Of a stretch of 64,000 bases of DNA, positions 8,107 through 32,331 are shown one piece after another. The position numbers and the translations under genes were made by a program. Positions within the stretch are counted from its first letter, which is position 1, and every line of letters begins with the position of its first letter. The notes below the pieces were generated by a model. The model did not search any database and was not told the DNA's origin. It saw nothing but the letters and a program-made list of their open reading frames with translations. Source of the DNA: Pseudooceanicola batsensis HTCC2597 (GTDB lineage Bacteria; Pseudomonadota; Alphaproteobacteria; Rhodobacterales; Rhodobacteraceae); NCBI RefSeq assembly GCF_000152725.1, contig NZ_AAMO01000015.1:1-64000 (forward strand), read 5' to 3'.

Positions 8107-8146
8107 AACTAAAGCGACACTGACATGGCGTGGAGCATATCTTTTG

Positions 8147-8178: not shown

Positions 8179-8251
8179 TAGATCGCGCAAGGCGGGGCGG
8201 TTTTTTTCTAATTCTGTGGTAGAAAGCGCCGTGGTGATATAGGCTTCACGC

Positions 8252-9136: not shown

Positions 9137-9138
9137 CG

Positions 9139-9871: not shown

Positions 9872-10080
9872 ATCGTTTCATTCGTCGTGCAACGATTCAT
9901 GTGGAGCCTCAGAAATATTCACTATTTCAAGGCGATAATCGTTTCGTCCTTTTGACGACGTTGGCTTTTGCCTCCTAACGCCTGAATCGTTGCAAAACCC
10001 GTGAAACAAAAACTTGCGCCAAGGAAAAATGTAGGTGTATCAATATCATAATCGTTTCACACTTGCGGGATATCGTTTCA
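9872..10080 (+). promoter_or_regulatory. Six-copy ATCGTTTCA operator-like array before fic
   Basis: The 326-nt gap 9754-10079 holds repeated 9-mers: ATCGTTTCA at 9872, 10051 and 10072; ATCGTTTCG at 9938; ATCGTTGCA at 9986; and an inverted TGCAACGAT at 9888. The last copy ends on the A of the fic ATG (10080). The downstream protein has an N-terminal winged HTH, so self-repression by binding these sites is a plausible reading. Confidence 0.6.
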
Positions 10081-11482: not shown

Positions 11483-14011
11483 ATGTCTTCAATACTCAAG
11501 TTTTTCCGAATTACATTCTTTCTCGCCCTGTATTTTTTCTTATGCATGGTCGTGGTGACCATAATGCTTCAGGGTTGGCCGGTTGGTGGCCAGATGCTGT
11601 TTGCATTTGGTGTTCCCGTCATTCTGGTCTGGTGGCAAGAAAAACGGAGATCGCGGAAAGTCGCTGCAAAGGCGCAAGCTGAGGGGAGTTCCGAAACCCA
11701 CCCCCCCCGACCTGAGCCGGTGCCGCGCCCAAGTGCCAACGACAAGCGTATCGAGCGTGAGCGCGAACGAACTCGCGAAGCCAATGCGTCTCAAGCACCG
11801 GCTGCCGTGCAGGCCTACTCTCCACCAAAGCAGGACTACGCTGAAATCGTTCGGGCTGGAAAGTCTGCGGCGCCGGCACTTGCCGCGGCCGCTGAACGAA
11901 ATCAGCCCTCGCGAATGGCATCGAGCGTATCGTCCCGACCAACGAAAAGCGGGTGGGTCCCGTCTAGCGAAACAGCTAGCGTGGCCGGCCGCAACATCGG
12001 CGGGATGGTCTATGTCGGCACGCCCCCCTTGCTGAACACCTACGGGTATCGTGACAAATGCCGAGCCTATATCGATCCGTCCCTGTCGGTCGCGCGCTCT
12101 GGAGCCGACAAAGCTGGAGAAGGTATGCCCTACTGGCCGGGGTACTCGGATATCTCACCTCAGTGCCGGGCGACCTACCTCGACTGGTTGGCCAGCGGGC
12201 GAAACGATGCCTCCTACAACCCCGGCTACATGTTCCTGTACTTCTACGGGCTGGAGCGTCGCTTCTTCGTTGATCAGTCCAATGAAGACGCAAAGGATAT
12301 CGTCCAGGAAGTTCGGCGGCTGCAGTCACTTTACCCTGACAACCACTCCGTCAGGCGCTATTTGGGTGAGTTCCTCGACATAGCGATGCTTGCCGAAACC
12401 GACCTCGACGCGATCGATCCGATTTTTGAGAAGCAGGGCTGGGAACTTCCGTTCTCACTCAAATACGCAATCGGAGCTCGGATCGACAAAGGCGAGAACC
12501 TGACAGCTGACTGGTTGCTGAGTTGGTTCATCTGCCATCCGGAAACAAATCTGAGAACTCCCGCGACGCGGTGCCGTGACGAGTTCGTTGCTCTTTTCCG
12601 TTTGCGGTTTGATCGGCGTTTTCCTGATGGACTGAAAGTGACCAAACCCCGGAAATCACTCACGGCTTCTTATAGGGCCGCCTCGAGCGAGTTTGAGGGG
12701 TCTGCCAACCCAACCGTTGATGGCAAGCCGGTCCCGGATATTTCCGGTCTGCGCAAACCGGTCGAGATTGCCCAGGAGTTGGCTGACGAGGTGATGAACG
12801 ACCTCGACAAGCTCAGTCGCTTCCTGGGCCGAAACCCTGATGGCCGCGGAAGCGTGGAAGCGCATGCCTTGCTACCCTCTGAACTGTGGGATGCCTTCCC
12901 ATCAGAGGAAATGGACCGCTTGAAATCTTGGGCAAGCACTATCGTCGATCGGGGGGGATTGGTGCCGCTTGAGGAGGTGATCGGACGTCTGGAGGGAGAA
13001 ACGAGCGAGAAGATCGGGAAACGGCAGATGACAGGAGCGGCCGACGCGCTCGCGCGCCTCGGTTTCGGTCTGGCGCCCGACCCTCGGTTTGCGCTCCGGT
13101 CGCCCAAGGCGGAGGAGCCTGTTGTGCTGTTTCGTCTGGGCGAACCCATCGAAAGACTGGAGGACGTTTCCGACAGCTATCGAAGCGCCTTGATCGAATT
13201 GGCACTTGGGTCGTTCGTCGCCCATGCGGATGGTCGCATCGCGGAGCCTGAACGCAGGGCGTTGGAAGAGCAAGTTGCAGCCGCGGCACTCAGCGATCAG
13301 GAACGCCGCAGGCTACGTGCAAACCTTGAATGGTTCCTGGCCGTGCCGCCGGACATGACGCTTCTGCGGCGCAAACTGAAGGAGGTGGGCCAAGACAGCC
13401 AAGCCGCTATGCGAGCAGCGCTGGTCGGTGCAGCACATGCCGATGGCATTATTCACTCCGACGAAGTCGCAAGCATCGAGAATATCTATAAGGCTTTGGG
13501 CCTTGATCCTGCGCTTGCCTACGCCGACCTGCATGCTGGCGAAGTTGCGGATGGTCCACGCACTGTTCGCGCGTCGCAACCGGGTCGCCCGGGCGAAGCG
13601 ATACCCGCGCTTGAAAAAGCCAGCGGACCGAAACTCGACGCTTCGCGGATCGCAGCAATCCGTTCGGACACCGAGCGCGTGTCGTCCGTCCTGGGGCAGA
13701 TTTTCGACGTCGAAGAGGAAGAAAACGGTGCCCCTGGGCCTGCCAGCCAAAGCCAGCTGGCAGGGCTTGACCAGAAACACGGCGCCCTCGTCCTCGAACT
13801 TCTGACTCGGGAGCATTGGTCTGAGACCGAGTTCGAGACGATCTGCGCCTCGCATGGCTTGATGGCGTCCGGGGCTTTGGAAGTCGTGAATGAATGGGCT
13901 TTTGAGACCTACGACGAAGCGCTGCTCGACGAGTATGATGGATATGACGTGTCTCTGGAGATTGCGGAGGCGGTAAAAGAAAAGATGAGTGCGGAGGGCA
14001 GGGATGTCTAA
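11483..14011 (+). CDS. sngA: TerB-domain protein, Shango subunit A
   Basis: An 842-residue protein. Residues about 5-50 hold two hydrophobic membrane segments, then a charged Pro/Arg-rich linker. The TerB N-terminal domain begins around residue 165 (WPGYSDISPQCRATYLDWLASGR and MFLYFYGLERR are hallmarks). A TerB-like helical domain follows around 575-680 (LGSFVAHADGRIAEPE and GAAHADGIIHSDEV, with metal-binding-type Asp/Glu). The TerB C-terminal domain ends it. The gene is followed by a BREX-type ATPase and a DEAD helicase, the order described for the Shango phage-defence system (TerB, ATPase, helicase). Start supported by GGAGAGAG upstream. Probably membrane-anchored. Confidence 0.85.
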   Translation: MSSILKFFRITFFLALYFFLCMVVVTIMLQGWPVGGQMLFAFGVPVILVWWQEKRRSRKVAAKAQAEGSSETHPPRPEPVPRPSANDKRIERERERTREANASQAPAAVQAYSPPKQDYAEIVRAGKSAAPALAAAAERNQPSRMASSVSSRPTKSGWVPSSETASVAGRNIGGMVYVGTPPLLNTYGYRDKCRAYIDPSLSVARSGADKAGEGMPYWPGYSDISPQCRATYLDWLASGRNDASYNPGYMFLYFYGLERRFFVDQSNEDAKDIVQEVRRLQSLYPDNHSVRRYLGEFLDIAMLAETDLDAIDPIFEKQGWELPFSLKYAIGARIDKGENLTADWLLSWFICHPETNLRTPATRCRDEFVALFRLRFDRRFPDGLKVTKPRKSLTASYRAASSEFEGSANPTVDGKPVPDISGLRKPVEIAQELADEVMNDLDKLSRFLGRNPDGRGSVEAHALLPSELWDAFPSEEMDRLKSWASTIVDRGGLVPLEEVIGRLEGETSEKIGKRQMTGAADALARLGFGLAPDPRFALRSPKAEEPVVLFRLGEPIERLEDVSDSYRSALIELALGSFVAHADGRIAEPERRALEEQVAAAALSDQERRRLRANLEWFLAVPPDMTLLRRKLKEVGQDSQAAMRAALVGAAHADGIIHSDEVASIENIYKALGLDPALAYADLHAGEVADGPRTVRASQPGRPGEAIPALEKASGPKLDASRIAAIRSDTERVSSVLGQIFDVEEEENGAPGPASQSQLAGLDQKHGALVLELLTREHWSETEFETICASHGLMASGALEVVNEWAFETYDEALLDEYDGYDVSLEIAEAVKEKMSAEGRDV

Positions 14012-15311
14012 GTTGAAACCACGTGAGCGCGATGCAATTGTACAGGCGCTTCGGGCCGGGGTCGTGCCCAAACTCGGTTTGCGCCATATTCAGGTTGGCC
14101 GCGTCCGAGAGATTGAAGAGCTCGTCAAGGACATGGACCGGATATCCGATGGCGGATCGGCGATCCGGTTCATCATCGGGGAATACGGATCGGGCAAGAC
14201 GTTCTTCATGAACCTGATCCGCCTCGTGGCTCTGGAGAAAGGCCTAGTCGTGATGTTCGCGGATCTAGCGCCAGATCGGCGCATTCACGCGACCGGCGGA
14301 CAAGCCCGAGGGCTGTATGCCGAGATGGCCCGAAACCTCTCGACGCGGACAAAGCCCGATGGTGGGGCGTTGGCCAGCGTCGTGGAGCGTTTTGTCAGCC
14401 AGGCCCACCGAGACGCTGAAGAACGGGATTTGCCAACAGGGTCTGTCATCCGTGAACGCCTTGGCCACTTCGAAGAACTCACCGGGGGGTTTGAGTTCGC
14501 GGAAGTCATCCGTCGATATTGGGAAGGCCATGAAACAGGCGACGACGAGCTGAAATCCGCAGCCCTGAGGTGGCTGCGCGGTGAATTCGCGACACGCACC
14601 GACGCGCGCAAAGCACTTGGCGTACGAACGATCATCGACGACGCCAGTGTCTATGACCATCTGAAGCTGATGTCGGCATTCGTGTGCGAGGCCGGATATA
14701 AAGGATTGCTGGTTGGCCTCGACGAGATGGTGAACCTCTACAAGCTCACATCGTCGCAGGCCCGCAATGCAAACTACGAACAGATCCTCCGGATCCTGAA
14801 TGATGTGCTGCAGGGCAGTGCCGAGAACCTCGGATTTCTCATGGGCGGGACTCCGGAGTTTCTGATGAACACCCGTCGTGGGCTCTATAGCTATGAAGCC
14901 CTTCAGTCGCGTTTGGCCGAGAACACCTTCGCGCGAGACGGATTGATCGACCTTTCTGGACCGGTTGTCCGGCTGGCCAGCCTCACCCCGGAAGACCTTT
15001 TCGTTCTTTTGACCAATGTCCGGCGGATCATGCAGGAAGATGCTGGAGCTTTACAGGACGACGCGCTCGAGGCCTTCATGGCGCATTGTTCTGACCGGAT
15101 CGGTGAAGCTTACTTCCGCACCCCGCGGAACACGGTGACCGCATTTGTGAACCTGCTTTCCGTGCTCGAGCAAAACCCCGGCGTCGAGTGGAGTGATCTG
15201 ATCGAAAAGATCGAGGTGTCCGAAGACCTCGGCGAAGACATGACAGAGGTAGACGAGTCGACTGGCGCCCAAGACCCCGGTGACGATGACCTGATCAGCT
15301 TCAAGCTCTGA
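14004..15311 (+). CDS. sngB: BREX-type ATP-binding protein, Shango subunit B
   Basis: A 435-residue P-loop ATPase of the BREX ATP-binding (DUF2791/BrxD-like) group. Walker A is GEYGSGKTF, Walker B-like acidic stretch is LLVGLDEMVNL, and the C-terminal part includes RLAENTFARDG and FRTPRNTV typical of the group. It overlaps the TerB gene by 8 nt; ATG 14004 is chosen because GGAGG lies just upstream. A single BREX-like ATPase is not a BREX system: no BrxA, PglX, PglZ or BrxC was found. It is better explained as the Shango ATPase. Confidence 0.85.
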   Translation: MSKLKPRERDAIVQALRAGVVPKLGLRHIQVGRVREIEELVKDMDRISDGGSAIRFIIGEYGSGKTFFMNLIRLVALEKGLVVMFADLAPDRRIHATGGQARGLYAEMARNLSTRTKPDGGALASVVERFVSQAHRDAEERDLPTGSVIRERLGHFEELTGGFEFAEVIRRYWEGHETGDDELKSAALRWLRGEFATRTDARKALGVRTIIDDASVYDHLKLMSAFVCEAGYKGLLVGLDEMVNLYKLTSSQARNANYEQILRILNDVLQGSAENLGFLMGGTPEFLMNTRRGLYSYEALQSRLAENTFARDGLIDLSGPVVRLASLTPEDLFVLLTNVRRIMQEDAGALQDDALEAFMAHCSDRIGEAYFRTPRNTVTAFVNLLSVLEQNPGVEWSDLIEKIEVSEDLGEDMTEVDESTGAQDPGDDDLISFKL

Positions 15312-15316
15312 CGCCG

Positions 15317-17488
15317 ATGAGCAGTGCGTTCGACAAACTGGCGAGGCCTGTGCAGAAATGGATACGCCAGAAAGGTTGGCGCGAACTTCGCGACATCCAG
15401 GCGCGATCCATCCGGACGATCTACGAAACCAATGCCGATTTAATCGTTGCAGCTTCTACGGCGGGCGGAAAGACGGAGGCGGCGTTCCTGCCGTTGATTT
15501 CACAGGTGCTTGACGCGCCGTCGGGCGGCACCGGTTTCGACCTGCTCTACATCGGTCCGCTGAAAGCCTTGATCACGGACCAGGCCATGCGGCTGGAGGG
15601 CATGTGCCAGGAAGCAGAGCTACCGGTTGTTCCCTGGCACGGGGATGTCTCGCAATCGATCAAGACGCGCGCGTTGAAATCTCCAAAAGGGATCCTGCTG
15701 ATAACCCCAGAGTCCCTTGAAGCGCTTTTCATTCGTCGCGGTTTGGAAATTGCCCGCCTATTTGGGGCCACGCGGGCGGTCGTGATCGACGAACTGCATA
15801 CGGTTCTGGATAGCGAACGCGGTGTCCAGCTTCGTTCACTGCTCACAAGGCTCGAGCTCGCGATAAAGCGCCCAATCCGTCGGATAGGTCTGTCAGCTAC
15901 GCTAGGCGACATGGACCTCGCCAAGGCCTATCTTCGCCCTGACGCAGCAAGCTCTGTCCAGCTGATCGAAGCAGATGGCGGCGAGGCAGAATTGAAGCTT
16001 CAGCTTCGCGGCTACCTCTCAGGCGATGAGGATGAAAACAGCCCATCCGCAACGGACGCGATAGCAGCCCATCTTTTCAAACACCTTCGAGGCAGCGACA
16101 ATCTGGTCTTCGCCGGAGCGCGCCAACGGGTCGAGATCTACGCAGATCGGTTGCGGGAGCTTTGCGAACGGGAGCACCTGCCACAGGAATTCTATCCCCA
16201 CCACGCGAGCCTCTCCCGAGAACACCGTGACTTCGTTGAGCGGCGCTTGAAGGATCCTGCGAAGCCGACGACCGCCGTTTGCACGTCGACGCTCGAGCTT
16301 GGAATCGACATCGGTGACGTGACTTGCGTGGCCCAAATCGGTGCGCCATTCAGCGTCGCGGCGTTGCGACAACGGCTTGGCCGGTCAGGCCGGCGTGAAG
16401 GACAACCGGCCATTCTGAGGCAGTATGCTGTCGAAGCCAAGTTGGCGCCGGAGAGCAGTTTCGTGGATCGTCTTCGCCTCGGCCTGATCAGGTCTATCGC
16501 GATGATAGATCTGCTGTTGGAAGGCTGGTGCGAACCGCCAAAACCGCAGGCGCTTCATCTCTCGACGCTCGTCCATCAGATACTGTCAGTCATAGCGCAG
16601 CGCGGCGGTGCGACTGCAAGCGTGGTCTACAACGTGCTCTGCCGCGAAGGCCCCTTTCGGAAGGTTACAACCGAAATCTTTGCAGACGTGTTGCGTGCGA
16701 TTGGCAACCCAGAAACCGGCTTGATCGAACAGGCCGGCAGCGGGCTGTTACTTTTGGGACAGACTGGCGAAAAGCTGGTTGAGCATTACAGTTTCTATGC
16801 GGTGTTCCAGACACCTGAAGAATTCCGCTTGGTTGCGGAGGGGCGAGATCTTGGAACCCTGCCAATCGACAATGTTCTTGCTCCCGGGATGCTGCTGATT
16901 TTTTCTGGTAGGCGTTGGATGGTTCAAGAAATCCATGATCGTGAAAAGGTCATCGTCGTCAAACCCGCGAAGGCTGGTGTGCCTCCCGTCTTCGGCGGCG
17001 ATGCAGGGGACATTCATGACAAAGTGATCGACCGAATGTTCGCGGTGCTCGAGGGGAATGCCAGTCCAGCTTACATGGATACAGTCTCTCTGATGATGCT
17101 CGAGGAAGCGCGTGCTCACTATGAACAGCTGGGGTTTAGGGCCAATAACATACACAGCATCGGCGAGCATACATTAGTCATTGCGACGCGGGTCGGGACG
17201 GTGAAGACATCAACCCTCGCGCTCGCACTCAGAAGCGAAGGGTTTTCGGTCGAACAACATGACGGGTTCCTGCTGCTGGAGGCCGGAGACGAAACCCCCG
17301 ATCTTCAAACGGTACTAGTGCATATTCGATCCGGCGAACCTGTCGATCTGTTCTCGGGAGCAGGGAACCTCATGTCGGAGAAGTTTCATCCGTACCTGTC
17401 GCTGCCCCTCTTGGAGTTGGATGCATTATCTTCGAGGCTTGAGCCCGATACTCTTACCGCGATGGTCGGTAGAATCTTCCCGGCATAA
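15317..17488 (+). CDS. sngC: DEAD/DEAH-box helicase, Shango subunit C
   Basis: A 723-residue superfamily 2 helicase. Motif I is ASTAGGKTEA, motif Ia YIGPLKALITDQ, motif II VIDELH, motif III GLSATLGD, and motif VI RQRLGRSGRREGQP; the layout is Lhr-like. The C-terminal third contains winged-helix and beta-rich regions. It starts 5 bases after the ATPase stop, so the three genes form one operon. In Shango the helicase is needed for defence; the exact DNA substrate is unknown. The gene converges on the minus-strand TIR/QueC operon with a 43-nt gap and no clear terminator. Confidence 0.87.
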   Translation: MSSAFDKLARPVQKWIRQKGWRELRDIQARSIRTIYETNADLIVAASTAGGKTEAAFLPLISQVLDAPSGGTGFDLLYIGPLKALITDQAMRLEGMCQEAELPVVPWHGDVSQSIKTRALKSPKGILLITPESLEALFIRRGLEIARLFGATRAVVIDELHTVLDSERGVQLRSLLTRLELAIKRPIRRIGLSATLGDMDLAKAYLRPDAASSVQLIEADGGEAELKLQLRGYLSGDEDENSPSATDAIAAHLFKHLRGSDNLVFAGARQRVEIYADRLRELCEREHLPQEFYPHHASLSREHRDFVERRLKDPAKPTTAVCTSTLELGIDIGDVTCVAQIGAPFSVAALRQRLGRSGRREGQPAILRQYAVEAKLAPESSFVDRLRLGLIRSIAMIDLLLEGWCEPPKPQALHLSTLVHQILSVIAQRGGATASVVYNVLCREGPFRKVTTEIFADVLRAIGNPETGLIEQAGSGLLLLGQTGEKLVEHYSFYAVFQTPEEFRLVAEGRDLGTLPIDNVLAPGMLLIFSGRRWMVQEIHDREKVIVVKPAKAGVPPVFGGDAGDIHDKVIDRMFAVLEGNASPAYMDTVSLMMLEEARAHYEQLGFRANNIHSIGEHTLVIATRVGTVKTSTLALALRSEGFSVEQHDGFLLLEAGDETPDLQTVLVHIRSGEPVDLFSGAGNLMSEKFHPYLSLPLLELDALSSRLEPDTLTAMVGRIFPA

Positions 17489-17531: not shown

Positions 17532-18797
17532 TTATTGGTTGCTCTGTCTACCTTTGTACGCTGCGCCAGTGGCTAACGCATGGGTTCGTCCCTCCTCAAA
17601 GGTGGCGATCTCCCAGACTGCCGGATCAGAATCACGAAAACGCTTTTCATGATCGGCGGCAGCATCGCTATCGCCAAGGGCATAAAGACAATTGGCCATC
17701 GTGGCGTGGATCCATTTCATGTCACTTCGCTCAGCTGAGTTAGGATCCCTTAGTAGGCGCTCAAGATTGGCAACGATGCTTTCGCGTGTTTTTCGTGCAC
17801 TCATCCTGTCGAATAGCGCTTCGTCTGGATTTGATTGCTGTGCTCCCCGCATATCGTAGCAGGTAGCTAGGTTCTCACCGTTGTAATAATCGCCTCGCAC
17901 TTCAAACCCTCGACGGTAATGACGGATCGCCATATCCAACTGTCCAGGCTGGTTGGTGGCAAGCCACAGTCGCTTATACATTGCCCCCGTAATTCCGCGT
18001 GTTTCTGGATCATTCGATTGGTCTGGATCTAGCGCAGAAATGATTTTTATGCCCTCGATTAGTGCGGAGATGTGATCTGGCTGCGCGGCCTTATAAGTAG
18101 ATAACGCCAATTGCTGCACGATAAAGGGGTCGTTCGGTTTGAGCGTATTTGCTGCATGGAAGGCTGCCGCTGCTCCGGCATGATCGCTTTCCTCGGCCAG
18201 CGTCTCGGCTTGGCGGATCAGGTCTGCTAGTCGTTTTTGATCAGCTTCCATCTCATCGACCAACTCATCAAATTCTTCTTCGGTCAACATAGGGCGCCGC
18301 AATCGCGGAAGAAACGTGTATACGGGACTGTCGGGTTTACCAGAAGCTAGTGCGGCTTCAATAAGAAGCCGGAGCTCGCGTGAGGCTCGGCCAGCTTCTC
18401 GTGCACCGATATCTTCTCCGAGGTGCCGGTACTGGAAAGTACTTATGTGGTCTAGGTCAAAATAGAGCCGACCAGCATCCTCTTTCATAACAATAGTTGA
18501 ATTTGGGCAAAGCGCGTGGCGGACGCCGAGTTCGTAGATGGCATTGGGATTTCCGGTTGAGATGTCTGCAACGACGAGGTCTGATCGCAGCAGCATTTCA
18601 TACATTTCGAGGTCAATTACGCCCGAATGGGTAACTTCGTCGGCTCGTATGCAGCGAAGGCCAGCGTCTTCTACTGCGGGGCGGATGATTGCCTCATACG
18701 TCGCATCCAGGTCGAGGGTCCGACCACTTTCATAGTCGGTCTTCTTCCCGAACCCCATGACAACAAAACAAACTTTACGGTCGTCGGACATCTTCAT
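17532..18797 (-). CDS. Deoxyribosyltransferase-like domain fused to TPR region
   Basis: A 421-residue protein (or 419 from ATG 18791). Residues about 8-115 resemble the nucleoside 2-deoxyribosyltransferase/TIR-like Rossmann group, with VVADISTGNPNAIYELG as the conserved core (Asp, Asn-Pro-Asn, Tyr-Glu-Leu). From about residue 165 the sequence is helical with TPR-like units (AETLAEESDHAGAAAAFHAAN, QLDMAIRHYRRGFEV, HATMANCLYALGDSDAAADH), similar to DUF4071 TRAF-binding-type proteins. It is the last gene of the nine-gene operon, 35 bases after the lipase-TPR gene. It may act as sensor or effector in nucleotide-based immunity; that role is inferred from domains and neighbours. Confidence 0.7.
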   Translation of the reverse strand: MKMSDDRKVCFVVMGFGKKTDYESGRTLDLDATYEAIIRPAVEDAGLRCIRADEVTHSGVIDLEMYEMLLRSDLVVADISTGNPNAIYELGVRHALCPNSTIVMKEDAGRLYFDLDHISTFQYRHLGEDIGAREAGRASRELRLLIEAALASGKPDSPVYTFLPRLRRPMLTEEEFDELVDEMEADQKRLADLIRQAETLAEESDHAGAAAAFHAANTLKPNDPFIVQQLALSTYKAAQPDHISALIEGIKIISALDPDQSNDPETRGITGAMYKRLWLATNQPGQLDMAIRHYRRGFEVRGDYYNGENLATCYDMRGAQQSNPDEALFDRMSARKTRESIVANLERLLRDPNSAERSDMKWIHATMANCLYALGDSDAAADHEKRFRDSDPAVWEIATFEEGRTHALATGAAYKGRQSNQ

Positions 18798-18832
18798 CTC
18801 ATTGGGCCTGTGTCGTTTGTTACCGCCTGCCG

Positions 18833-20254
18833 TTATGACCGCACTATGCCAAAAGCGTGATCGATTTGATCGCGCGCATCAGCTCCATAAATGCGCACAG
18901 TCACAGCTGTCGCTTGGACATACATCGAATTCTTAGCACGTACCGACGTGGCCGCTGCAATTGCGTCACGATATGCCGCGACAGCATCTTCTAAACAGCC
19001 CAGTACAAGCAGGGCCTCACCGCGTGTCGCTAGTCCCCAAGGACTGGGAGGAGCCAACTCTACATGTTCAAGCGCAAGGCGTGCTGCCTCAACTGCGGCT
19101 TGCGGGATTGGATCATGATCGGCGCTTGACGCTAGATGCAAAAAGGCGACGTTAATTCCCTGATAATATGCTTGGGCAAAATTCCCTGCCGAAATGGCCG
19201 CAGCTCGACTTTCATTGTAAAGTGACAACGCTCGATCAAAATCCGTTTGGCGACGCTCCAGCAACCACCGCCGCTTTAACCGACCGGCCAGAACTCCGCG
19301 CGGATCCAGGTGATCCCGACCATCTGCCCAAGTTTCGATAACATTGAGAGCTGCTTGTGATCGACCAAGGCTCTCTAGGGCGAGCGACAAGGTTACAATG
19401 GCGTTGTCGTCGAGTTCAGAAACTATTGGCTCAAGTATGTCGATGGCGCTTTGGAACTCCCGGCGCTCGACTGCGAGCCGTGCTGTATCCGCTACTGAGT
19501 GTAAGGGGGCGTTGCCACGCAGCAACCGCCTTACAATGTCGTAAGCCAAGTCGTCCCGCGTGGCGGGGCGGACAATATCGAGATGGTTCCCCGGGATCGC
19601 GGCTTGTTGACTAACTGGGAACGGGTCGAGCGACGACGTCGACGGAACGAAGGCATCTACCTCGCCAGCAACCGAGATAAATGCGAACGGACTTTTTGCT
19701 CCGAATTGGTGCGCCCAGTCTGTACGTAGTTGGGAGATAAACGCTCCCCCGCTATCCATGTCGCGAAGCTGAAATTTGAGTAGTCGTGCGAGGCCAGCCT
19801 TTGCCAGGCCTGCGCTCGGCGTCCCAAAGAGGACTAGGTGCGATAGACGACCGTCAAAACATGATGAGTCTAGCACTGCGCGTTGCGCGACAAGGCCGCC
19901 CATACTGTGGGCAACGAGTGCGATGCAATCATATCCTGCTAACGTGCGCGAGGTTAGTTTGGTGGCAAGACTGCGCGCGCATAGTCGGATACCGGGATCT
20001 GCTTCCCACAACGGAAAATCGAGCGAGAGCCGCGACGGATATCCAATGCTGAACGCATCCCAATCAGAGAACTCAGGGTCGTCGACGAACAATCTGGAAA
20101 AGTCTGTCCAAGTTCCGTCCGCTGTACCCGAAAAGCCATGTAAGAAGATTACGGCGGCTCGGCGACCTTTCTTGCGCAGCTCAAGAATATGCGGATCGGG
20201 TACTGGACTGCCCCTAGTTGAGAACCAACCTATCAGTCGCCGCAACATTGCCAT
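18833..20254 (-). CDS. Alpha/beta hydrolase (lipase-like) with TPR C-terminus
   Basis: A 473-residue protein. The N-terminal alpha/beta hydrolase (residues about 30-245) shows the oxyanion-loop stretch FLHGFSGTADGTW, nucleophile elbow VAHSMGGLVAQ, and a probable catalytic His in GNHLDIVRP. The C-terminal half is TPR-like (REFQSAIDILEPI, FDRALSLYNESRAAA, LGCLEDAVAAYRDAI). ATG 20254 overlaps the upstream stop as ATGA; a TTG at 20257 is an alternative. Lipase-like or PGAP1-like hydrolases serve as membrane- or lipid-attacking effectors in several defence systems. A similar effector role here is inferred. Confidence 0.75.
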   Translation of the reverse strand: MAMLRRLIGWFSTRGSPVPDPHILELRKKGRRAAVIFLHGFSGTADGTWTDFSRLFVDDPEFSDWDAFSIGYPSRLSLDFPLWEADPGIRLCARSLATKLTSRTLAGYDCIALVAHSMGGLVAQRAVLDSSCFDGRLSHLVLFGTPSAGLAKAGLARLLKFQLRDMDSGGAFISQLRTDWAHQFGAKSPFAFISVAGEVDAFVPSTSSLDPFPVSQQAAIPGNHLDIVRPATRDDLAYDIVRRLLRGNAPLHSVADTARLAVERREFQSAIDILEPIVSELDDNAIVTLSLALESLGRSQAALNVIETWADGRDHLDPRGVLAGRLKRRWLLERRQTDFDRALSLYNESRAAAISAGNFAQAYYQGINVAFLHLASSADHDPIPQAAVEAARLALEHVELAPPSPWGLATRGEALLVLGCLEDAVAAYRDAIAAATSVRAKNSMYVQATAVTVRIYGADARDQIDHAFGIVRS

Positions 20255-20805
20255 CAAGTGCGGCCCATAGTAAGAATCTCGATGATTTTGAGACCCTTGG
20301 CCCCGGCGTGTTCAGCGAGATCAGCCGTGAAGTCGTCTTCTCCGTGTGCGAGCCCTTCCCAAACTACAATAGCGAATTTCTCACGGGCATTTGCCCCTGA
20401 TACGCGTGACACTATTTTTTGATTAACCTCTGAGAACGCGTTCTTGTCTGACCTTTCATAGCCTAATTCAATAAGATCCGATTGCGTTCGAGCCCGTGCT
20501 ACTACTCTATCGAAGCGCGGCCCCCAATCACCAGGACGGTCGGTGACAGACACTTCGCGAAACTCGGCCGCTGCATACGGAAGAATAATGGTGGCGGGTA
20601 TGTCTAGCGCTTGGCAGGCCTCAAGCCCCAAAATATCGGCACCACAAGCAGCTGCGCAAACCAGTCGGGCAATTTTTTGTTCCTTAAGCACAGCCGCGAT
20701 TGCCTCTCCTACTGCAGGAGCACATTGCAGCGGAAAACGCGGCGTTTCGCGGTCATTAGGGTCGATCCGGCGACCGGCGAGACATGCAATCGCTGAAATA
20801 GTCAT
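20254..20805 (-). CDS. SLOG-like Rossmann-fold protein
   Basis: A 183-residue protein starting at ATG 20805, supported by GGAG five bases upstream and an ATGA overlap with the TIR gene. LAGRRIDPNDRETPRFP near the start, VCAAACGADILGLEACQALDIPATIILPY in the middle and VARARTQSDLIELGYERSDKNAF later resemble SLOG-type Rossmannoid proteins linked to nucleotide signalling. SLOG domains bind nucleotides, ADP-ribose or their derivatives and often accompany TIR proteins. The assignment comes from motif resemblance only and was not tested with a profile search. Confidence 0.6.
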   Translation of the reverse strand: MTISAIACLAGRRIDPNDRETPRFPLQCAPAVGEAIAAVLKEQKIARLVCAAACGADILGLEACQALDIPATIILPYAAAEFREVSVTDRPGDWGPRFDRVVARARTQSDLIELGYERSDKNAFSEVNQKIVSRVSGANAREKFAIVVWEGLAHGEDDFTADLAEHAGAKGLKIIEILTMGRT

Positions 20806-21266
20806 TTGATCTCCGGTGCCAGTTTGGACCAAGGGACCATCTTAATTCCGTTTTTCAACCAACTCGGCTGGCGTCCGGTAAACCGGTCGCCAGCGTGCAC
20901 GGCGACCACCTTTTTCCCCAACTCAAGGCTCTTTTGAACCTCCCAACTAACCCATCGGCTTTCTGCTGTTTTATCGGAAACATAAACAACCGTCACAGAG
21001 GAACGGTTGATCCGCTCGGTAATCTTCTGGCGAATATATTCTGCGCGTTCGCTGTCATAAGGAGCACGAACCGAGTGGTCATTGAACTCAATATCACTAT
21101 TCTCGTTCTTAGCCTGAGCGCGTAATAGATTGACCTCGTTGATGTCTTCCGTTGCAAAACTTATGAAAACATTCCGCTTTCCGCTAGTAAGGGCATCGCG
21201 TGCCTTCTGCTCAAGTGCGCTTATGTTGCCTAATTGGCTCCAGCCACCGCCGCCACCGCCGCCCAT
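20802..21266 (-). CDS. TIR-domain protein with poly-glycine N-terminus
   Basis: A 154-residue protein. After Met come seven glycines and Trp (encoded by GGC/GGT triplets), then a short linker and a TIR-like domain of the MTH538/DUF1863 (ThsB-like) type from about residue 28: NVFISFATEDINEV, then SERAEYIRQKITERINRSSVTVVYVS and SRWVSWEVQKSLELGKKVV. The acidic residue in the SERAEYI helix is a candidate NADase Glu. ATG 21266 is chosen because AGGAGG overlaps the last codons of queC and is spaced seven bases upstream; longer starts would overlap queC. The exposed Gly tail beside a QueC-like enzyme is the key oddity. The effector role is inferred. Confidence 0.8.
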   Translation of the reverse strand: MGGGGGGGWSQLGNISALEQKARDALTSGKRNVFISFATEDINEVNLLRAQAKNENSDIEFNDHSVRAPYDSERAEYIRQKITERINRSSVTVVYVSDKTAESRWVSWEVQKSLELGKKVVAVHAGDRFTGRQPSWLKNGIKMVPWSKLAPEIK

Positions 21267-21267
21267 G

Positions 21268-21858
21268 TCATTCCTCCTCAAACTTGAATTCATTGCATGC
21301 GATACATGCGCCGCATGCCTCATCATTGCCTAAGTGACAGGAATAGGTTCCAACGATACCTTTTTGCTGTGCCAGCGCAACGACATCGATTTTATGAAAT
21401 TCTGCCAGCGGAGCAATTACTCGCATCGATTTTCCCATGCTCAATGAAAGCAAGGCCTCTGCTTGGGCTAGGAAATTGTTGGTCTGGTCGGGGAAGAGGC
21501 TGGAATCTTCGTGCAACAGACCAATGGAAACGGCATCAGCTCCACGCTGAACGGCGTAAGACGATGCCACCAAGAGAAATAGCAGGTTGCGTCCAGGGGT
21601 AAAGGCATCTTCCAACACCCGCAGAGATGGATCTGTCAAGCCTGAGCGGATTAAGTCCCCAAAACCTTCAAGCTTGGCTACCTTTGGTTCTGGCAATCCC
21701 AACCGGGCGAGAACGGCTCGACAAGCGGCGAGCTCCTTGTCCTTTGATCGCTGCCCAAAATCGACGAATAATGGATATTGTTCTAGTCCTTCCTCGCGAG
21801 CAAGTACGGCAACCAACGTAGAATCTAGGCCGCCTGATACTAGTGTGACGATGCTCAT
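21268..21858 (-). CDS. QueC-like 7-deazaguanine synthase family enzyme
   Basis: A 196-residue PP-loop ATP-dependent enzyme of the QueC family. The ATP-pyrophosphatase motif SGGLDST is at residue about 9, RNLLFLLVASSYAVQRGADAVSIG is the family core, and the zinc-site cysteines CHLGNDEACGACIAC lie near the C-terminus. QueC makes preQ0 from CDG in queuosine synthesis, but no queD, queE or folE is nearby. It is coupled by ATGA to the OGG-like gene and followed by a TIR gene after one base. The related Cap9 of type IV CBASS is the better guide to function. It is shorter than housekeeping QueC (about 220-235), as expected for a specialised paralogue. Confidence 0.85.
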   Translation of the reverse strand: MSIVTLVSGGLDSTLVAVLAREEGLEQYPLFVDFGQRSKDKELAACRAVLARLGLPEPKVAKLEGFGDLIRSGLTDPSLRVLEDAFTPGRNLLFLLVASSYAVQRGADAVSIGLLHEDSSLFPDQTNNFLAQAEALLSLSMGKSMRVIAPLAEFHKIDVVALAQQKGIVGTYSCHLGNDEACGACIACNEFKFEEE

Positions 21859-22553
21859 TGCGCGTACCTCCTATGTTGCTTGGCGATGCGCATTACGATC
21901 CAAATTGCCCAATCGAGTATGCCCACGGGACATTTAAGTTCTTCCGCGTGAACGCGTAGTACATCCTCAAGCGGCAAATAGTGCTTGAGTGAACTGACTG
22001 CGCTACTTCCCTTCGAATGAAGGCCAGTCAGAGACATATAATCGAGAACGTGTCGATCGATTATCGCCAAGTCATATGTGAGCGCGACATTCCGCAGAAA
22101 CATGCTTGCTTGCTTCGGGCCAATGCCATGTGCGTTTTCCACGAGCCAAGTGCGTGCGTGGCTCGCTGTAGCGAAACCTGCAATTAGGGTCGACAGACTG
22201 TCCGCGTTGTCCAAAACACTGGAATGAATGCGTTCAAGTTGGACAGCTCTGACTGAAGGAAAGCGGTAGAGCCGCTCGCGACCACCAACCTTCAACGGCA
22301 TATGCAGTATGCCGTGGATCGAATTTCCAACGCTGCCGCAGTGATTATTGCAGTACAGAACTCCTGCTTCGTCGATCGCGTCGGCTGCGGCGGTGGCCAA
22401 AGAAAAGGGAACTTGACTACTTAACACACAGGCAGACAACTCCCACCACAACGCACGTTCGTCTGCTACATCTCTGCGTTGGGAGACTCGGCTTTCGATG
22501 TCGGGACAGATACTTGCCACCGCAGACTGCAACTGTCGGCCTTCAAAGCTCAT
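21855..22553 (-). CDS. HhH-GPD DNA glycosylase-like protein (OGG type)
   Basis: A 232-residue protein of the endonuclease III/OGG superfamily. LSSQVPFSLATAAADAI is the early helical part; the helix-hairpin-helix is HGIGPKQASMFLRNV with the catalytic-type Lys in PKQAS, followed by the invariant-type Asp in AIIDRHVLDYM. That Lys/Asp spacing is as in bifunctional OGG and AGOG glycosylase/lyases. Unlike endonuclease III no C-terminal FeS cysteine cluster is seen. It sits between the TGT-like and QueC-like genes with ATGA overlaps on both sides, the same partnership as in type IV CBASS. Its substrate may be a modified base or nucleotide rather than damaged DNA. Confidence 0.78.
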   Translation of the reverse strand: MSFEGRQLQSAVASICPDIESRVSQRRDVADERALWWELSACVLSSQVPFSLATAAADAIDEAGVLYCNNHCGSVGNSIHGILHMPLKVGGRERLYRFPSVRAVQLERIHSSVLDNADSLSTLIAGFATASHARTWLVENAHGIGPKQASMFLRNVALTYDLAIIDRHVLDYMSLTGLHSKGSSAVSSLKHYLPLEDVLRVHAEELKCPVGILDWAIWIVMRIAKQHRRYAQ

Positions 22554-23962
22554 GTCTTAAATACCTCCGGGTTAAGCCGGAGAAGCATCTCTGTTGCTGC
22601 CTTCCCAAGCCGACTGGTGACGAAGCTCTCCAATCTATCTTCTTTTGCCATTTCTCGTAGCTTCACATTGAAGCGTTTGAAATAGTCGATGTTGTGGAAT
22701 GCAACTTTCCCAGCGAATTCGACGCCAGGATCGTCGAGCGCTTGGCTGGCAATCGCCAAGTCGGCGAAACGCGTCTGGTCGGTGAACAGATCAAAATGCT
22801 GGAAGTGATTTAACCTATCAGTTTCGTGGTCAACAACGGTCCGACACCACTCAAGACCATCAAAGCAGTCAGCACCGGCAGAGGCCAATATTCCTACCGT
22901 CCATGGATTGCCAGTACCGAGCAAGTGAATTGGCTGGTAAAAGGACAGCCTGTCAAGTTCACGGCGTACAGCTTGCATTGTTGCGACACGCTGGCGGATA
23001 CCAGCGCCAAGTTCACGCTCTGGAATTCCGATCATAGGCGGATGGAGCGTTTCGGCTACTAGCCGTGTAACCGTTGGTATCAGCTCAGCCTTGTATCCTC
23101 CAGATTTCAAGCGTGGCACATGGATCACCGGCAACACCGGTGCACCCGTCATCGCTTGATCACGTTTTGTGTTCTCAATGATGCCATCGGCCAAGCGCGA
23201 TGCCTTACTGGGCAGTCTCGTTTTAGGTTTGTCGAAGCAAAACGCCCAGTCGAACGGGACCGTACCAAGGACCTCTTCGAAATCACTTGTTGTCCAGCGC
23301 TTGGCTGCAAGCCTGCTAGCCTCATAATTTCCTGAATCCAGCAGGATGAAGCCTCCAGTGTCCTTATATTCATTGAGTGCATCGATCAGCGCATCCGGTT
23401 TGCGCCGTTTGACTAAGTCCCAAGCCGAGACAAGCAACGTTGGCGCTCGTGCTAACGCAAGCGCCTTGACGGCACCATGAGGAACGAGCTGTGTTTCAAA
23501 GGAAGAGACTGAGAGAAAGACGCTAGGCAACGGAAGGCGCCCATTTGCAATATCAGGGGGGCGCCTCGACCGTTTGGTAGGCGGAAGGTTTGCAGTCAAA
23601 CGGTTAAACAGACGCGAAAAAGCTTCGTGATCCTCCCGTTCGTTCCATGAAGAGAGATCGACCGTAGCATACCCACCAAACCCGTATGCCGGGCCGCTCC
23701 CATCAAGACTTGCGCAGATGATTTTTACGTTGTGTTGTTGAGCGAGTCGAACCTCGTCAATCACGGTGTCTTTTGTATTTGATGCTGCTGACCAGAGTAC
23801 GAGGGCACTTCTTGCAGCTGCGAGCTCCGCGTTCATCTCATCTATAAATCGTTGCTTGACGAGCCTATCCCACCACACAGTCCAGCGTCGAGACAATAGC
23901 TCGACCAGCTTCTCGGTGCGGCCTTCGTCTTGACGTCCGTAAATGACATAAATATCCGCCAA
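22550..23962 (-). CDS. TIR domain fused to TGT-like transglycosylase domain
   Basis: A 470-residue fusion. Residues about 1-130 are TIR-like: DIYVIYGRQDEGRTEKLVELL, WTVWWDR, ALVLWSAAS and VIDEVRLAQQHNVKIICASLD. From about residue 145 a TGT (queuine tRNA-ribosyltransferase)-like barrel follows, with FILLDSGNYE, then IHLLGTGNPWTVGILASAGADCFDGLEWCR, matching the GxGxP...GxDxFD pattern of TGT. The start is TTG at 23962, set by AGGAG about seven bases upstream; no better ATG exists. The gene is ATGA-coupled to the OGG-like gene and is 64 bases after the kinase gene. It probably handles a 7-deazaguanine or other base. The TIR glutamate position is not obvious, so NADase activity is uncertain. Confidence 0.78.
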   Translation of the reverse strand: MADIYVIYGRQDEGRTEKLVELLSRRWTVWWDRLVKQRFIDEMNAELAAARSALVLWSAASNTKDTVIDEVRLAQQHNVKIICASLDGSGPAYGFGGYATVDLSSWNEREDHEAFSRLFNRLTANLPPTKRSRRPPDIANGRLPLPSVFLSVSSFETQLVPHGAVKALALARAPTLLVSAWDLVKRRKPDALIDALNEYKDTGGFILLDSGNYEASRLAAKRWTTSDFEEVLGTVPFDWAFCFDKPKTRLPSKASRLADGIIENTKRDQAMTGAPVLPVIHVPRLKSGGYKAELIPTVTRLVAETLHPPMIGIPERELGAGIRQRVATMQAVRRELDRLSFYQPIHLLGTGNPWTVGILASAGADCFDGLEWCRTVVDHETDRLNHFQHFDLFTDQTRFADLAIASQALDDPGVEFAGKVAFHNIDYFKRFNVKLREMAKEDRLESFVTSRLGKAATEMLLRLNPEVFKT

Positions 23963-24026
23963 ACAAATCTCCTAACCTAACCGCTTTCAGTAGAATGTTA
24001 GAAAGAGGATAGATACAAGCTAAACC

Positions 24027-25187
24027 TTAGATTGTTCTGGGTGTCGAGGTCGCCCAAGCCGCTTGGTAGAGAGCACTCGTGAAATCTCTGGCCAGAATGA
24101 CCTTCAGGCGTGGGTTCTCAAGCACCACGGATTGCGCTTCATCGAGTATTATTACTGACTGACCGGCAAGAGAAAGCGCTACAGCATCAGCGATGCAGTC
24201 GCGGGAAAGGCCATCGGCAAGCACCAACAAAGCTGCGTGTTGTTCTTCAGTCGGGGGCGTATGAACATGTTCGGCACGGACGCCCAGCTCCCCCAAGCGG
24301 TGAAGCGTCTCTTCAAGCACGTATTTGTTACCCAACGTGTTCGATGCAGCCAAGACAGCAACAGGGCCTCGCAGCATACCTCCAACCGGTTCTAACATTG
24401 GATGCTGCCGCTCTATCGGAAAGTCGCGATTTTGCACATAGTATGCTACGGCGAGCGACGCCTGTTCTGCCGCTGCCGTTGCATCCTCACCCTCAAGTCC
24501 CCAGTAATGTGCGAAGGTCGCAGAGAAAACGTCACCGGTGCCAATTTTGAAGACGTTAGAAGAGCGAAAGGCTGGTACGAACATTGTCCTCTTCCTGCTT
24601 TCGATGACAAGAGCTCCGCACACGCCTTGCTTTACTATGACAACCGAGGCGGCGCCCGTGTTGACAAGACTACGCGCTGAATCTTCGAGGTCAGAGATTC
24701 CGGTCCCACTAATGAGCTCCCGGGCATTTAGGACGAGCGTTATCTCGTCTGCTTCCGAGCCATTCCGCCTAAAGTGGAGAGACCCCCACGTGCCTTGGGG
24801 GTCAAAGATAGCACGCCGTGCGCGCACCACGGCGTCCCCCTCGACTAGGCCAAACCTTAACACTGTCTCCGCATCCACATGGAACGCTCTTTCTTGCGCA
24901 ATATCGCTCGGTTCAAGGTGGGGGGTGGATAGTGGATGAAAGTAAGCAAACGCTATCGGCGATTGGCGCCTCATCAGCTCCAAGGTGATGCCGCTGTCCC
25001 GATACGGCTCTAAAGCAATCGACTGATCATCTTCAAAATAGCTGTGAAGGATTGTTTTGTCACCAAGAGCGGCAAGCGCCTGTGCCGCGCGTCCACCGGA
25101 GCCAAGCAAGGTGTTCCACGCCGGGTGAAGGCAAATCTCCCGATAAAGCCCTCCAGCTATATGAATTGGCGTGCGTAATCCTGTCAC
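24027..25187 (-). CDS. PfkB-family kinase with deoxyribosyltransferase-like C-terminus
   Basis: A 386-residue protein. Residues about 8-265 are a PfkB/ribokinase-type sugar or nucleoside kinase: GGLYREICLHP, LGSGGRAAQALAALGD (substrate and Gly-Gly region), and FKIGTGDVFSATFAHYW holding the catalytic Asp of the GxGD motif. Residues about 275-386 (GPVAVLAASNTLGNKYVLEETLHRLGELGV ... SVIILDE) look like a nucleoside deoxyribosyltransferase-like Rossmann domain. GTG 25187 is chosen because it overlaps the stop of the upstream TIR-like gene as GTGA. It may make or clear a phosphorylated nucleoside used by the rest of the operon; that is inference. Confidence 0.75.
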   Translation of the reverse strand: MTGLRTPIHIAGGLYREICLHPAWNTLLGSGGRAAQALAALGDKTILHSYFEDDQSIALEPYRDSGITLELMRRQSPIAFAYFHPLSTPHLEPSDIAQERAFHVDAETVLRFGLVEGDAVVRARRAIFDPQGTWGSLHFRRNGSEADEITLVLNARELISGTGISDLEDSARSLVNTGAASVVIVKQGVCGALVIESRKRTMFVPAFRSSNVFKIGTGDVFSATFAHYWGLEGEDATAAAEQASLAVAYYVQNRDFPIERQHPMLEPVGGMLRGPVAVLAASNTLGNKYVLEETLHRLGELGVRAEHVHTPPTEEQHAALLVLADGLSRDCIADAVALSLAGQSVIILDEAQSVVLENPRLKVILARDFTSALYQAAWATSTPRTI

Positions 25188-25657
25188 TTGTAGCCGAGCC
25201 GCTGATAAACTGGCTCCTGATAGTGCCAATCATCCTTGGTTTCCATTGTCCAGTTGGTGAGAGCATGTGCCACAATTCTTGGAGAAAACGGAACAAATAT
25301 GGCCCCAATACCCTTGATAATAGGAGGGCACGTAGCCTCTTCCATGTAACGCGATCCATTGAGATTGATGCCAATGATGCGGCACCCCCTCTCTCTCGCG
25401 ACCTCCATTTCCCAGCGGACGTACTTATGCTTGGATCGGGTGTCCTGACCAATAAGAACGGCAAACGTACCGGCCAAATCAATCCTCTCGCGGCACTTTC
25501 GTTTGATATACGCTTCGTTCTCCGAATTGATCTCTTGAGCAAGCTGGCAGTTCGCGAAGTTGAAGTCGATACGCTCGTGCTGCTTCCATGCGAGCATCAA
25601 GCGATAGTAATGAATGTCGGTGCTGCTGAATCCGACGAAAGTGCGTGGAAGCCCCAT
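25184..25657 (-). CDS. TIR-like (ThsB/MTH538-type) protein, first gene of defence operon
   Basis: A 157-residue protein with RTFVGFSSTDIHYYRLMLAW at the N-terminus, the helix SENEAYIKRKCRERIDLAGTFAVLIG with a possible catalytic Glu, and KYVRWEMEVARERGCRIIGINLNG. This pattern is the MTH538/DUF1863 TIR-like group that includes ThsB of Thoeris. The start ATG 25657 has AGGTGG five bases upstream. It is the first gene of the nine-gene operon and overlaps the kinase gene. No ThsA partner is present, so this is not a standard Thoeris. It could sense infection and make a nucleotide signal, or act as effector. Confidence 0.75.
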   Translation of the reverse strand: MGLPRTFVGFSSTDIHYYRLMLAWKQHERIDFNFANCQLAQEINSENEAYIKRKCRERIDLAGTFAVLIGQDTRSKHKYVRWEMEVARERGCRIIGINLNGSRYMEEATCPPIIKGIGAIFVPFSPRIVAHALTNWTMETKDDWHYQEPVYQRLGYK

Positions 25658-27746: not shown

Positions 27747-28367
27747 GTGCCGAGGCCAGCGAAAAACCTGAAGCTTGAAGAGCGCATCGAAGTCGCGCGG
27801 CGCTTTGCGGCGGGCGAAAGCGCGAAGGACCTGGCGGCGGCGTACGGCATCTCTCCACGCCACGTGAACCGGCTCGCGAGGGAGGAGGCGGGCGAGGGCA
27901 TAATGGTGCGCGACCCGAGCGAGACGGTGGCATTCCGGGCAAGCATATCCGAGCTCGATGCCTTCGACGCCGAGTGGCGCGCGCGGGGTTTTGCCAACCG
28001 GTCCCAGGCGCTGAATGCGGTTCTGCGAGGACGGTGCGGATTCCTCGATGTACCCCGTGATCTGGTCGCGGAGTTCTGCGCGGCATGGCGTCAGGCGAAG
28101 GATGTGAGCGACGCCGGATTGGCTCTCGCCAAGGCGGTCCATCGCTGTCGGTTGGAGGTCTCGGAGGCGGATCGCGCGGTGCTGATCGAACTCTTGAATC
28201 TGGCGCAGTCGATGAGCCGTCAAATGGGCCGGATGAAGGATGCGGCGCTGGCGCTGCGTGCTCAGGAGTGGCCTAAAAAGGAAGAAGGGCAGGGGGAGGA
28301 GGGCGCGGTTCTGGAGGATGGCCCGCGCACGATCGGGAGCGGATTGAGGCTCGTCAGGAATGGCTGA
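27747..28367 (+). CDS. Relaxosome accessory DNA-binding protein
   Basis: A 206-residue protein starting at GTG 27747. The N-terminus contains an HTH (ARRFAAGESAKDLAAAYGISPRHVNRLAREEA), and the middle has a ribbon-like FRASISELDAFDAEWRARGFANRSQALNAVLRG, as in MobC/ribbon-helix-helix accessory proteins. It overlaps the relaxase gene by 8 nt. It likely binds oriT and loads the relaxase, in keeping with this placement; the HTH plus RHH-like combination is inferred by eye. Confidence 0.7.
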   Translation: MPRPAKNLKLEERIEVARRFAAGESAKDLAAAYGISPRHVNRLAREEAGEGIMVRDPSETVAFRASISELDAFDAEWRARGFANRSQALNAVLRGRCGFLDVPRDLVAEFCAAWRQAKDVSDAGLALAKAVHRCRLEVSEADRAVLIELLNLAQSMSRQMGRMKDAALALRAQEWPKKEEGQGEEGAVLEDGPRTIGSGLRLVRNG

Positions 28368-30276: not shown

Positions 30277-30283
30277 GGGGGAG

Positions 30284-32206: not shown

Positions 32207-32331
32207 CAGTATTAGGAGTTGCGACAGGACACGATAGCGAGTGCATCTGCAAGCATTCGGATTTCCCGTTGACAGGATCAGTTCAAACAGTTGAATTTGA
32301 ACGGTAGTTGGCTCTAGAAATGGGAAGACGC

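Follow-up and report, generated by a model that had tools for sequence, protein, structure and literature searches.

The stretch of DNA analysed here (the window) comprises 64,000 nucleotides of Pseudooceanicola batsensis HTCC2597 (assembly GCF_000152725.1, contig NZ_AAMO01000015.1, positions 1 to 64,000) and harbours nine tightly packed genes on the minus strand (17532-25657), among them genes for a TIR-TGT fusion (gene 3), an OGG-type glycosylase (gene 4), a QueC-like ligase (gene 5) and a TIR protein with a poly-Gly N-terminus (gene 6). Our analysis suggests that the gene 6 TIR is likely the acceptor of a deazaguanine-type base, thereby replacing the CD-NTase of type IV cyclic oligonucleotide-based antiphage signalling systems (CBASS), and that the operon likely encodes an antiviral system free of a CD-NTase. 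This reading is drawn by analogy with type IV CBASS, in which the QueC-like enzyme Cap9 conjugates 7-carboxy-7-deazaguanine (CDG) to the N-terminal glycine of the CD-NTase (PMC11996544, PMC13279940). According to the same two sources, the motif of the type IV CD-NTase is MGGS, Cap10 binds the modified end, and the tag is required for defence. Such conjugation of a nucleobase to a protein was described in 2025 for this CD-NTase and has been argued by analogy for QatB.

An MGG start marks the TIR encoded next to queC

The AUG of gene 6 is located one nucleotide past the queC stop codon and is preceded by the Shine-Dalgarno sequence AGGAGG; the longest open reading frame (ORF) of gene 6 begins within queC. 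From this AUG the protein opens with M-GGGGGGG-W, and a Gly-rich tail of about 30 residues precedes the TIR fold. In the set of related loci described below, 43 of the 44 TIRs carry MGG ahead of the TIR core, mostly by 32 residues, the start being the MG nearest to the core, picked by hand, with the ribosome-binding site inspected in the window only. The lone exception, L029, is a broken ORF, and L069, a later addition to the set, likewise has MGG. Moreover, of the database relatives (1528, of which 120 were listed), MGG stands at the start predicted by their sources in 115 of the 120 and within 40 residues in 119. When the first in-frame start was taken as the rule, 15 of the 44 TIRs showed an MGG start as compared to none of the 219 rows of the other eight families, and MGG was found within 60 residues in 42 of the 44 TIRs as compared to a single one of these 219 rows. 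Among the 640 ORFs called in the first loci, 15 start with MGG, and 13 of these 15 encode the poly-Gly TIR. The MGG motif is not part of the patterns used to find the loci (KRNVFISF and EFNDHSV). In addition, Glu 109 and Trp 108 of the gene 6 TIR are kept in all 44 rows. The second TIR of the operon, encoded by gene 1, belongs to a family without MGG start (0/18). The preliminary description of the operon had named the TIR proteins in general as partners of the deazaguanine module; the MGG tail narrows this to one TIR, gene 6, with deazaguanylation itself as a predicted step.

The core genes are kept in related loci

The locus set comprised 45 loci, namely the window, 38 loci obtained by a profile scan of genome contigs with the TIR alignment as query, two plasmid loci and four loci reached through TGT. 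Loci representing places already covered (L001, L054, L062, L065 and L066) were omitted, as were L050-L053, L063 and L064 in favour of longer stretches; L080 also stands outside the set. The order TGT-OGG-QueC-TIR is kept on one strand in 44 of the 45 loci, with gaps of less than 150 nucleotides within this core except in L007, where an insertion that contains two ORFs interrupts the TIR-TGT gene (4745-8717) and the QueC, OGG and TIR genes are open. The exception with regard to the core is L039, a 4.2-kb contig with a distant TIR starting with MGGG and no QueC, which is perhaps a minimal relative. The MGGG-TIR gene lies there beside those of a 166-residue protein with hydrophobic stretches and a 295-residue protein (1260-3053). 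In addition, 13 rhizobial plasmids hold a full-length match to the TIR-TGT protein, two of which were opened. Thus, the gene order is not unique to the element of the window.

The loci were assigned to Pseudomonadota, Thermodesulfobacteriota, Nitrospirota, Bacillota, Bacteroidota and Minisyncoccota, and all named loci beyond Pseudomonadota are metagenome-assembled. A PfkB gene stands ahead of the core in 32 loci, and the families of genes 9 and 1 are present in 31 and 18 loci, respectively. The TGT exceeds 430 residues and is fused to a TIR in 35 of 44 aligned rows, with Glu 70 kept in 34 of these 35; the nine shorter rows include one from the type IV CBASS loci used as a yardstick (see below) and the split gene of L007. 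Several loci from Bacillota, Bacteroidota and some Proteobacteria (L030, L033, L035-L038, L056 and L069) encode a TGT of 319-341 residues without a TIR, and the fused TIR is therefore dispensable.

Genome draws from three groups (1146 genomes, the three centres excluded) yielded four loci of the TIR form as compared to three of type IV CBASS, which makes the two forms similarly frequent; the TGT model behind these draws derives from CBASS proteins, and two TIR-form finds belong to one genus. Near-identical copies were absent from the plasmid and E. coli collections, which may lack records close to the genome of the window, and the phage collection contained distant TIRs only. As a separate observation, an IMG/VR contig of 82.7 kb (L080) encodes a poly-Gly TIR that is 69% identical.

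Conserved residues and trees of the deazaguanine enzymes

The family alignment revealed that gene 5 keeps the SGGxDS motif, F122 and D124, and the four zinc cysteines. In Cap9, Tyr 115 and Asp 117 read the base (PMC13279940). In our alignment, these two positions of Cap9 correspond to F122 and D124 of gene 5, and QatC has lost both residues and has two threonines there. With regard to TGT, Cap10 (9ntn, 2.6e-12) was the only match of gene 3 in the PDB at E 0.1, and Asp 209, 244, 365 and 368 are kept in at least 43 of 44 rows, one row being type IV CBASS. Gene 4 keeps Lys 147 and Asp 166 in 43 of 43 rows, which we take to be the catalytic pair of the OGG family; the roles of the catalytic residues of the TIR, PfkB and TGT families are likewise presumed from family knowledge. 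Since the PADLOC OGG model gave no match to gene 4 at E 0.1, gene 4 represents a divergent OGG.

In the QueC tree, the TIR-associated (44 rows), CBASS (3) and canonical (8) sequences are each set apart by one branch, with supports of 99/97, 98/94 and 99/95, respectively; one canonical candidate, L077, gave no row. Because the tree is unrooted and consists of three groups with long branches, it does not decide which two of the groups are sisters. In the TGT tree, from which the split gene of L007 was omitted, the canonical (4 rows) and CBASS (3 rows) sequences are each placed on one side of a branch with a support of 100/100, and no single branch separates the 43 TIR rows from the rest (2 changes; such a branch is present in 22% of the bootstrap trees). 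The canonical preQ0/tRNA pathway was considered as a candidate role and finds no support in the trees, both of which set the canonical rows apart.

No CD-NTase was found in the loci

In line with the preliminary description, Pfam and PADLOC did not reveal a CD-NTase among the nine proteins, and searches of the 44 related loci likewise revealed none. Eight CD-NTase queries gave no match at E <= 0.01 in the window and the first 39 loci, one of which is a piece of the window. Moreover, eleven CD-NTases together with a profile of the three type IV enzymes gave no match at E <= 1 in the 45 loci; the profile recovers its own three source sequences, which is a circular control. A hidden CD-NTase in the operon is rejected on the basis of the domain calls and the searches of the loci.

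As a yardstick we used three type IV CBASS loci found with the PADLOC TGT model, namely L055, which belongs to the same class as the window, and L067 and L068, which were obtained by sampling the phylum to which G029 belongs, this genome being the source of a Bacteroidia locus. The order QueC-TGT-CD-NTase-2TM-OGG is common to the three loci, in agreement with the preliminary description, which had ascribed a CD-NTase to type IV CBASS. The CD-NTases of L055 and L067 start with MGGSGGGSY and MGGGGGGGGY, respectively. Hence, the same MGG tail is present on two unrelated folds, TIR and CD-NTase, beside the same three enzyme families.

Proposed mechanism and observations that weigh against it

The proposed mechanism starts from a TIR with an MGG start and its own ribosome-binding site, and from a QueC-like enzyme that keeps the residues for ATP and zinc and those that read the base. 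By analogy with Cap9, removal of the methionine would expose the glycine, to which gene 5 would couple CDG. By analogy with Cap10, the TGT domain may then hold or further process the base-tagged tail without acting on tRNA, and the OGG and PfkB enzymes would probably edit or recycle the base. Upon infection the licensed TIR, with its invariant Glu, would convert NAD to an ADP-ribose-type signal, as in Thoeris. The TPR-S and SLOG proteins would presumably sense this signal and fire an exchangeable effector. In the window this would be the lipase, and in the majority of relatives a membrane protein of the double-SLATT type; the infected cell would finally die or stop growing.

Several observations weigh against the gene 6 TIR as acceptor of the base. 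The presence of the TIR in 38 of the 45 loci is given by construction, the TIR being the query; this does not hold for the partner genes, and all six relatives reached through TGT also contain the TIR. A Gly-rich tail by itself could be a linker. In one of the type IV loci, L068, the CD-NTase (8543-9508) apparently starts with MASSKDTYF, and the MGG motif is therefore not absolute; the acceptor residue may not always be glycine. With respect to gene 5, the PDB entries of canonical QueC score higher (71 and 55 bits) than Cap9 (9nto; 51 bits, 1.7e-12), the base-stacking Tyr of Cap9 is replaced by Phe and the motif YxDC by FPDQ, and in the tree gene 5 groups with neither canonical QueC nor Cap9. 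Moreover, 13 of the 45 loci lack a recognised effector.

The main result against the simple model is the missing QueE, the enzyme that makes CDG. The TIGR04508 model was used to look for QueE in 43 hosts, one of which (G161) holds type IV CBASS instead, and 36 of the 43 gave a match at E <= 0.001, nine of them over the cut-off; many of these matches are weak and their identity as QueE is putative. An alphaproteobacterial QueE query, which found all three positive controls, one being the query's own genome, gave no match in the seven TIGR04508-negative hosts and in G026, the sole match of which was weak. QueE was thus not found in eight of the 43 hosts (G000, G016, G022, G026, G027, G028, G038 and G157), among them the window's own genome (92% complete). 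The genomes G027 and G038, the latter with a distant TIR only, are about 1 Mb in size, and G157 is 99% complete. These eight hosts seem unable to make CDG; seven of them possess a canonical TGT and are therefore likely salvagers. In such hosts, the base is either taken up from outside or a different one, or the system is idle. The genes folE, queD, queE and queC are found in some phages (PMC10002423), which leads to the speculation that a phage could supply the base.

Alternative explanations

The nearest rival, which we regard as unlikely, is a Thoeris-type TIR system travelling with a base-modification cassette, in which QueC, TGT, OGG and PfkB modify nucleic acids (DNA or RNA) or free nucleotides and leave the TIR itself unmodified. 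Genes 1 and 6 are both ThsB-type, TIR systems are typically accompanied by SLOG and SLATT partners, OGG and TGT belong to nucleic-acid enzyme families with kept residues, and the best score of gene 5 is with canonical QueC. Against this rival, the MGG start is found on the queC-adjacent TIR and is absent from gene 1, and the corresponding N-terminus of type IV CBASS is known to accept the base. In addition, the TGT is of the Cap10 and not of the tRNA type, and a SIR2 or macro-domain ThsA is absent from the nine proteins.

Clearly less probable is that the operon serves the metabolic salvage of 7-deazapurines, a role proposed by Libby et al. 2026 for QueC cluster 4, and that the TIR and TPR-S genes are hitchhikers. 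The frequent PfkB gene ahead of the core is consistent with salvage, as cluster 4 adjoins PfkB-PF05014 genes; yet 13 loci do without PfkB, the motif differs from that of cluster 4, effector genes and defence neighbours are present, and the TIR was also encountered when loci were reached through TGT (all four non-CBASS matches besides the centres, and both plasmids opened).

A type IV CBASS relying on a CD-NTase encoded in trans, to which two SMODS proteins on other contigs of the window's own genome could point, is very improbable, as 29 of 39 host genomes are without SMODS match at E <= 0.001 (10 with a match, 9 over the cut-off), no CD-NTase was found at the loci, the TIR itself bears the CD-NTase tail, and the QueC proteins of TIR and CBASS loci fall on different sides of the supported branches.

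Operon layout and exchangeable effectors

The tight packing noted in the preliminary description holds for every junction: 4-nucleotide overlaps at the junctions of genes 1/2, 3/4, 4/5, 6/7 and 7/8, and gaps of 64, 1 and 35 nucleotides between genes 2/3, 5/6 and 8/9, respectively, with start codons chosen by spacing. For gene 2, the GTG at 25187 gives the overlap with gene 1, and its longest ORF begins at 25229; for gene 7, the ATG at 20805 gives the overlap with gene 6, and its longest ORF begins at 20832. A promoter scan gave no excess over shuffles (6 sites as compared to 6.4), and a terminator scan (14 as compared to 8.9) yielded no usable site. The gene identities proposed earlier were largely borne out (Table 1), the domains by Pfam and PADLOC and SLOG by predicted fold; the deoxyribosyltransferase part assigned to gene 2 is putative.

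Table 1. Features of the operon and its neighbouring defence locus. E-values are given behind the respective model.
Feature	Position	Strand	Evidence
Gene 1, ThsB-type TIR, 157 residues, second TIR of the system	25184..25657	-	ThsB_TIR 4.2e-15 (Pfam); PADLOC ThsB 1.4e-41
Gene 2, PfkB (ribokinase-fold) kinase-like protein with C-terminal Rossmann-like part	24027..25187	-	PfkB 3.5e-8
Gene 3, TIR-TGT fusion, TGT of Cap10 type	22550..23962	-	TIR_2 2e-11; PADLOC TGT 1.3e-18
Gene 4, OGG-type HhH glycosylase/lyase	21855..22553	-	Ogg-HhH 1.4e-23; PDB matches are N-glycosylase/DNA lyases
Gene 5, QueC-like ligase, 196 residues, predicted Cap9 counterpart	21268..21858	-	QueC 4.2e-40
Gene 6, poly-Gly ThsB-type TIR, 154 residues, predicted base acceptor	20802..21266 (ATG 21266)	-	ThsB_TIR 1.1e-23
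Predicted N-terminal acceptor motif Met-Gly-Gly of gene 6	21258..21266	-	
Gene 7, SLOG-fold protein (predicted)	20254..20805	-	AlphaFold2 and structure comparison
Gene 8, alpha/beta-hydrolase (lipase-like) with TPR-S, likely effector	18833..20257	-	TPR-S 2.3e-14; PGAP1 1e-4, below cut-off
Gene 9, deoxyribosyltransferase/TIR-like domain with TPR-S	17532..18797	-	TPR-S 3.9e-22; PADLOC TIR effector model 4.3e-10
Complete Shango (SngABC) defence locus, neighbour outside the system	11483..17488	+	SngA 5.2e-103; SngB 1.2e-176; SngC 3.4e-271

Glu 83 of gene 1 is kept in 18 of 18 aligned rows. Gene 2 contains a GTGD motif, with Asp 233 in 32 of 32 rows, and is predicted by AlphaFold2/Foldseek to combine a ribokinase fold with a further Rossmann-like part. 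Gene 7 gave no Pfam or PADLOC call above the cut-off, and its profile had chance-looking matches only in the PDB, the best being a serine dehydratase; by structure prediction it has a SLOG fold resembling the ThsA sensor domain.

Effectors were counted at a bit score above 100 in stretches of up to 10 kb on each side of the core. A double-SLATT gene is present in 25 of the 45 loci, and the two double-SLATT proteins profiled consist of SLATT_3 and SLATT_1. SLATT proteins have been predicted to be membrane effectors beside TIRs, regulated by ADP-ribose derivatives (PMC9503650). The lipase-TPR-S family of gene 8 occurs in four loci, none of which has a SLATT gene, and the SLOG family of gene 7 in three, always together with gene 8. 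A trypsin-TPR-S family likewise occurs in four loci, three strong members (>1200 bits) being without SLATT gene and the fourth match, in L017 (134 bits), residing in a SLATT locus. The lipase and TPR proteins, which had been named as effectors from the outset, remain likely effectors here, as one of several exchangeable types. Such a constant core combined with interchangeable effectors is a mark of signalling immunity. In L024-L026, a CAP12-type TIR effector gene, profiled in one of the three, is located between the gene 9 homologue and the core and represents a possible further effector class.

Genomic setting

The complete Shango locus is convergent with the operon and ends 43 bp from gene 9. 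This proximity and the type I methyltransferase beside L033 provide a defence context that backs the reading of the operon as a defence system; this methyltransferase is the sole member profiled of a gene family found near the TIR-QueC core in L033, L035 and L038. Upstream of Shango, a Fic-domain protein is encoded (10035-11366) that matches PADLOC PDC-S04 and SoFic. A further likely defence gene (32308-34692) encodes a 794-residue protein with a SEFIR-like TIR and an ORC/CDC6-like ATPase, which matched only itself when compared by phmmer at E 0.001 with the ORFs of the 45 TIR loci. The window also contains genes for a relaxase, a coupling protein and Trb/VirB conjugation proteins (28360-32206 and 36954-45859), and the operon is therefore located on a likely conjugative element.

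Significance and comparison with known systems

We lean towards placing these loci, next to type IV CBASS and Qat, in a third class of immunity by protein deazaguanylation, with the TIR replacing the cGAS-like enzyme; where the host makes no base, a base from outside, such as one supplied by a 7-deazaguanine-making phage, could even be the trigger. If the TIR bears the same tag, base-tagging would license immune signalling enzymes in general rather than being peculiar to CBASS, and would connect CD-NTases and TIRs, two large families of nucleotide-signal immunity in bacteria. The glycine tail together with QueC, TGT and OGG would then be a portable licensing device fitted to two unrelated second-messenger synthases, and the occurrence of the same tail and enzyme families on two folds would allow the features of the tag to be told apart from those of the enzyme. 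Searches of open-access literature revealed no paper joining QueC or deazaguanylation with a TIR in its title or the opening of its abstract, with an earlier mention possible in Wassarman et al. 2025, Millman et al. 2020 and Burroughs et al. 2015. In the available parts of PMC10952713, PMC7699616 and PMC10002423, QueC is named only for Qat, type IV CBASS or phages.

Cluster 4 of PF06508 (Libby et al. 2026), in which a QueC-like protein occurs with a PfkB-deoxyribosyltransferase and a helix-turn-helix protein, resembles the operon in that the QueC-like gene adjoins a PfkB fusion gene, mostly in Proteobacteria. It differs in the motif, which is CH-x5-CxxCxGCxK as compared to CH-x6-CxxCxxCxE here; the main text of that study names no TIR, TGT or OGG partner for cluster 4, and an overlap with the TIR family is possible. 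In the same main text, which is without the word TIR, cluster 9 (Cap9) has an adjacent CD-NTase in 67%. The two-gene loci of staphylococcal phages (Iyer et al. 2022) likewise combine a ThsB-type TIR with an adjoining SLATT membrane protein, but no deazaguanine module is described for them, and the identity amounts to 32-34% over part of the TIR only.

Like the operon, Qat combines a QueC-family enzyme with a partner carrying an N-terminal glycine motif (QatB MGTS, essential in Qat). In contrast to QatC with its about 400 residues, gene 5 comprises 196 residues and keeps the base-reading Asp that QatC has lost. The nine proteins gave no call for QatA, QatB, QatD, the Qat ATPase or TatD, and the PADLOC QatC model matched with 11.1 bits only. 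With Thoeris, the operon shares ThsB-type TIRs with a Glu that is presumably catalytic, and gene 7 with its predicted SLOG fold like the ThsA sensor domain. Here, however, the SLOG protein stands alone, no SIR2-SLOG or macro-domain ThsA was found, the TIR carries an MGG tail and is accompanied by QueC, TGT and OGG, and the effectors are of the lipase, SLATT or trypsin type.

Finally, type IV CBASS and the operon have in common the QueC, TGT and OGG families, the MGG, Gly/Ser-rich N-terminus on the signalling enzyme, and effector genes of the 2TM/SLATT class. They differ in that a ThsB-type TIR stands here for the CD-NTase, the TGT is usually fused to a TIR, and a PfkB-type gene is added; the gene order is QueC-TGT-CD-NTase-2TM-OGG in the three CBASS loci and TGT-OGG-QueC-acceptor here.

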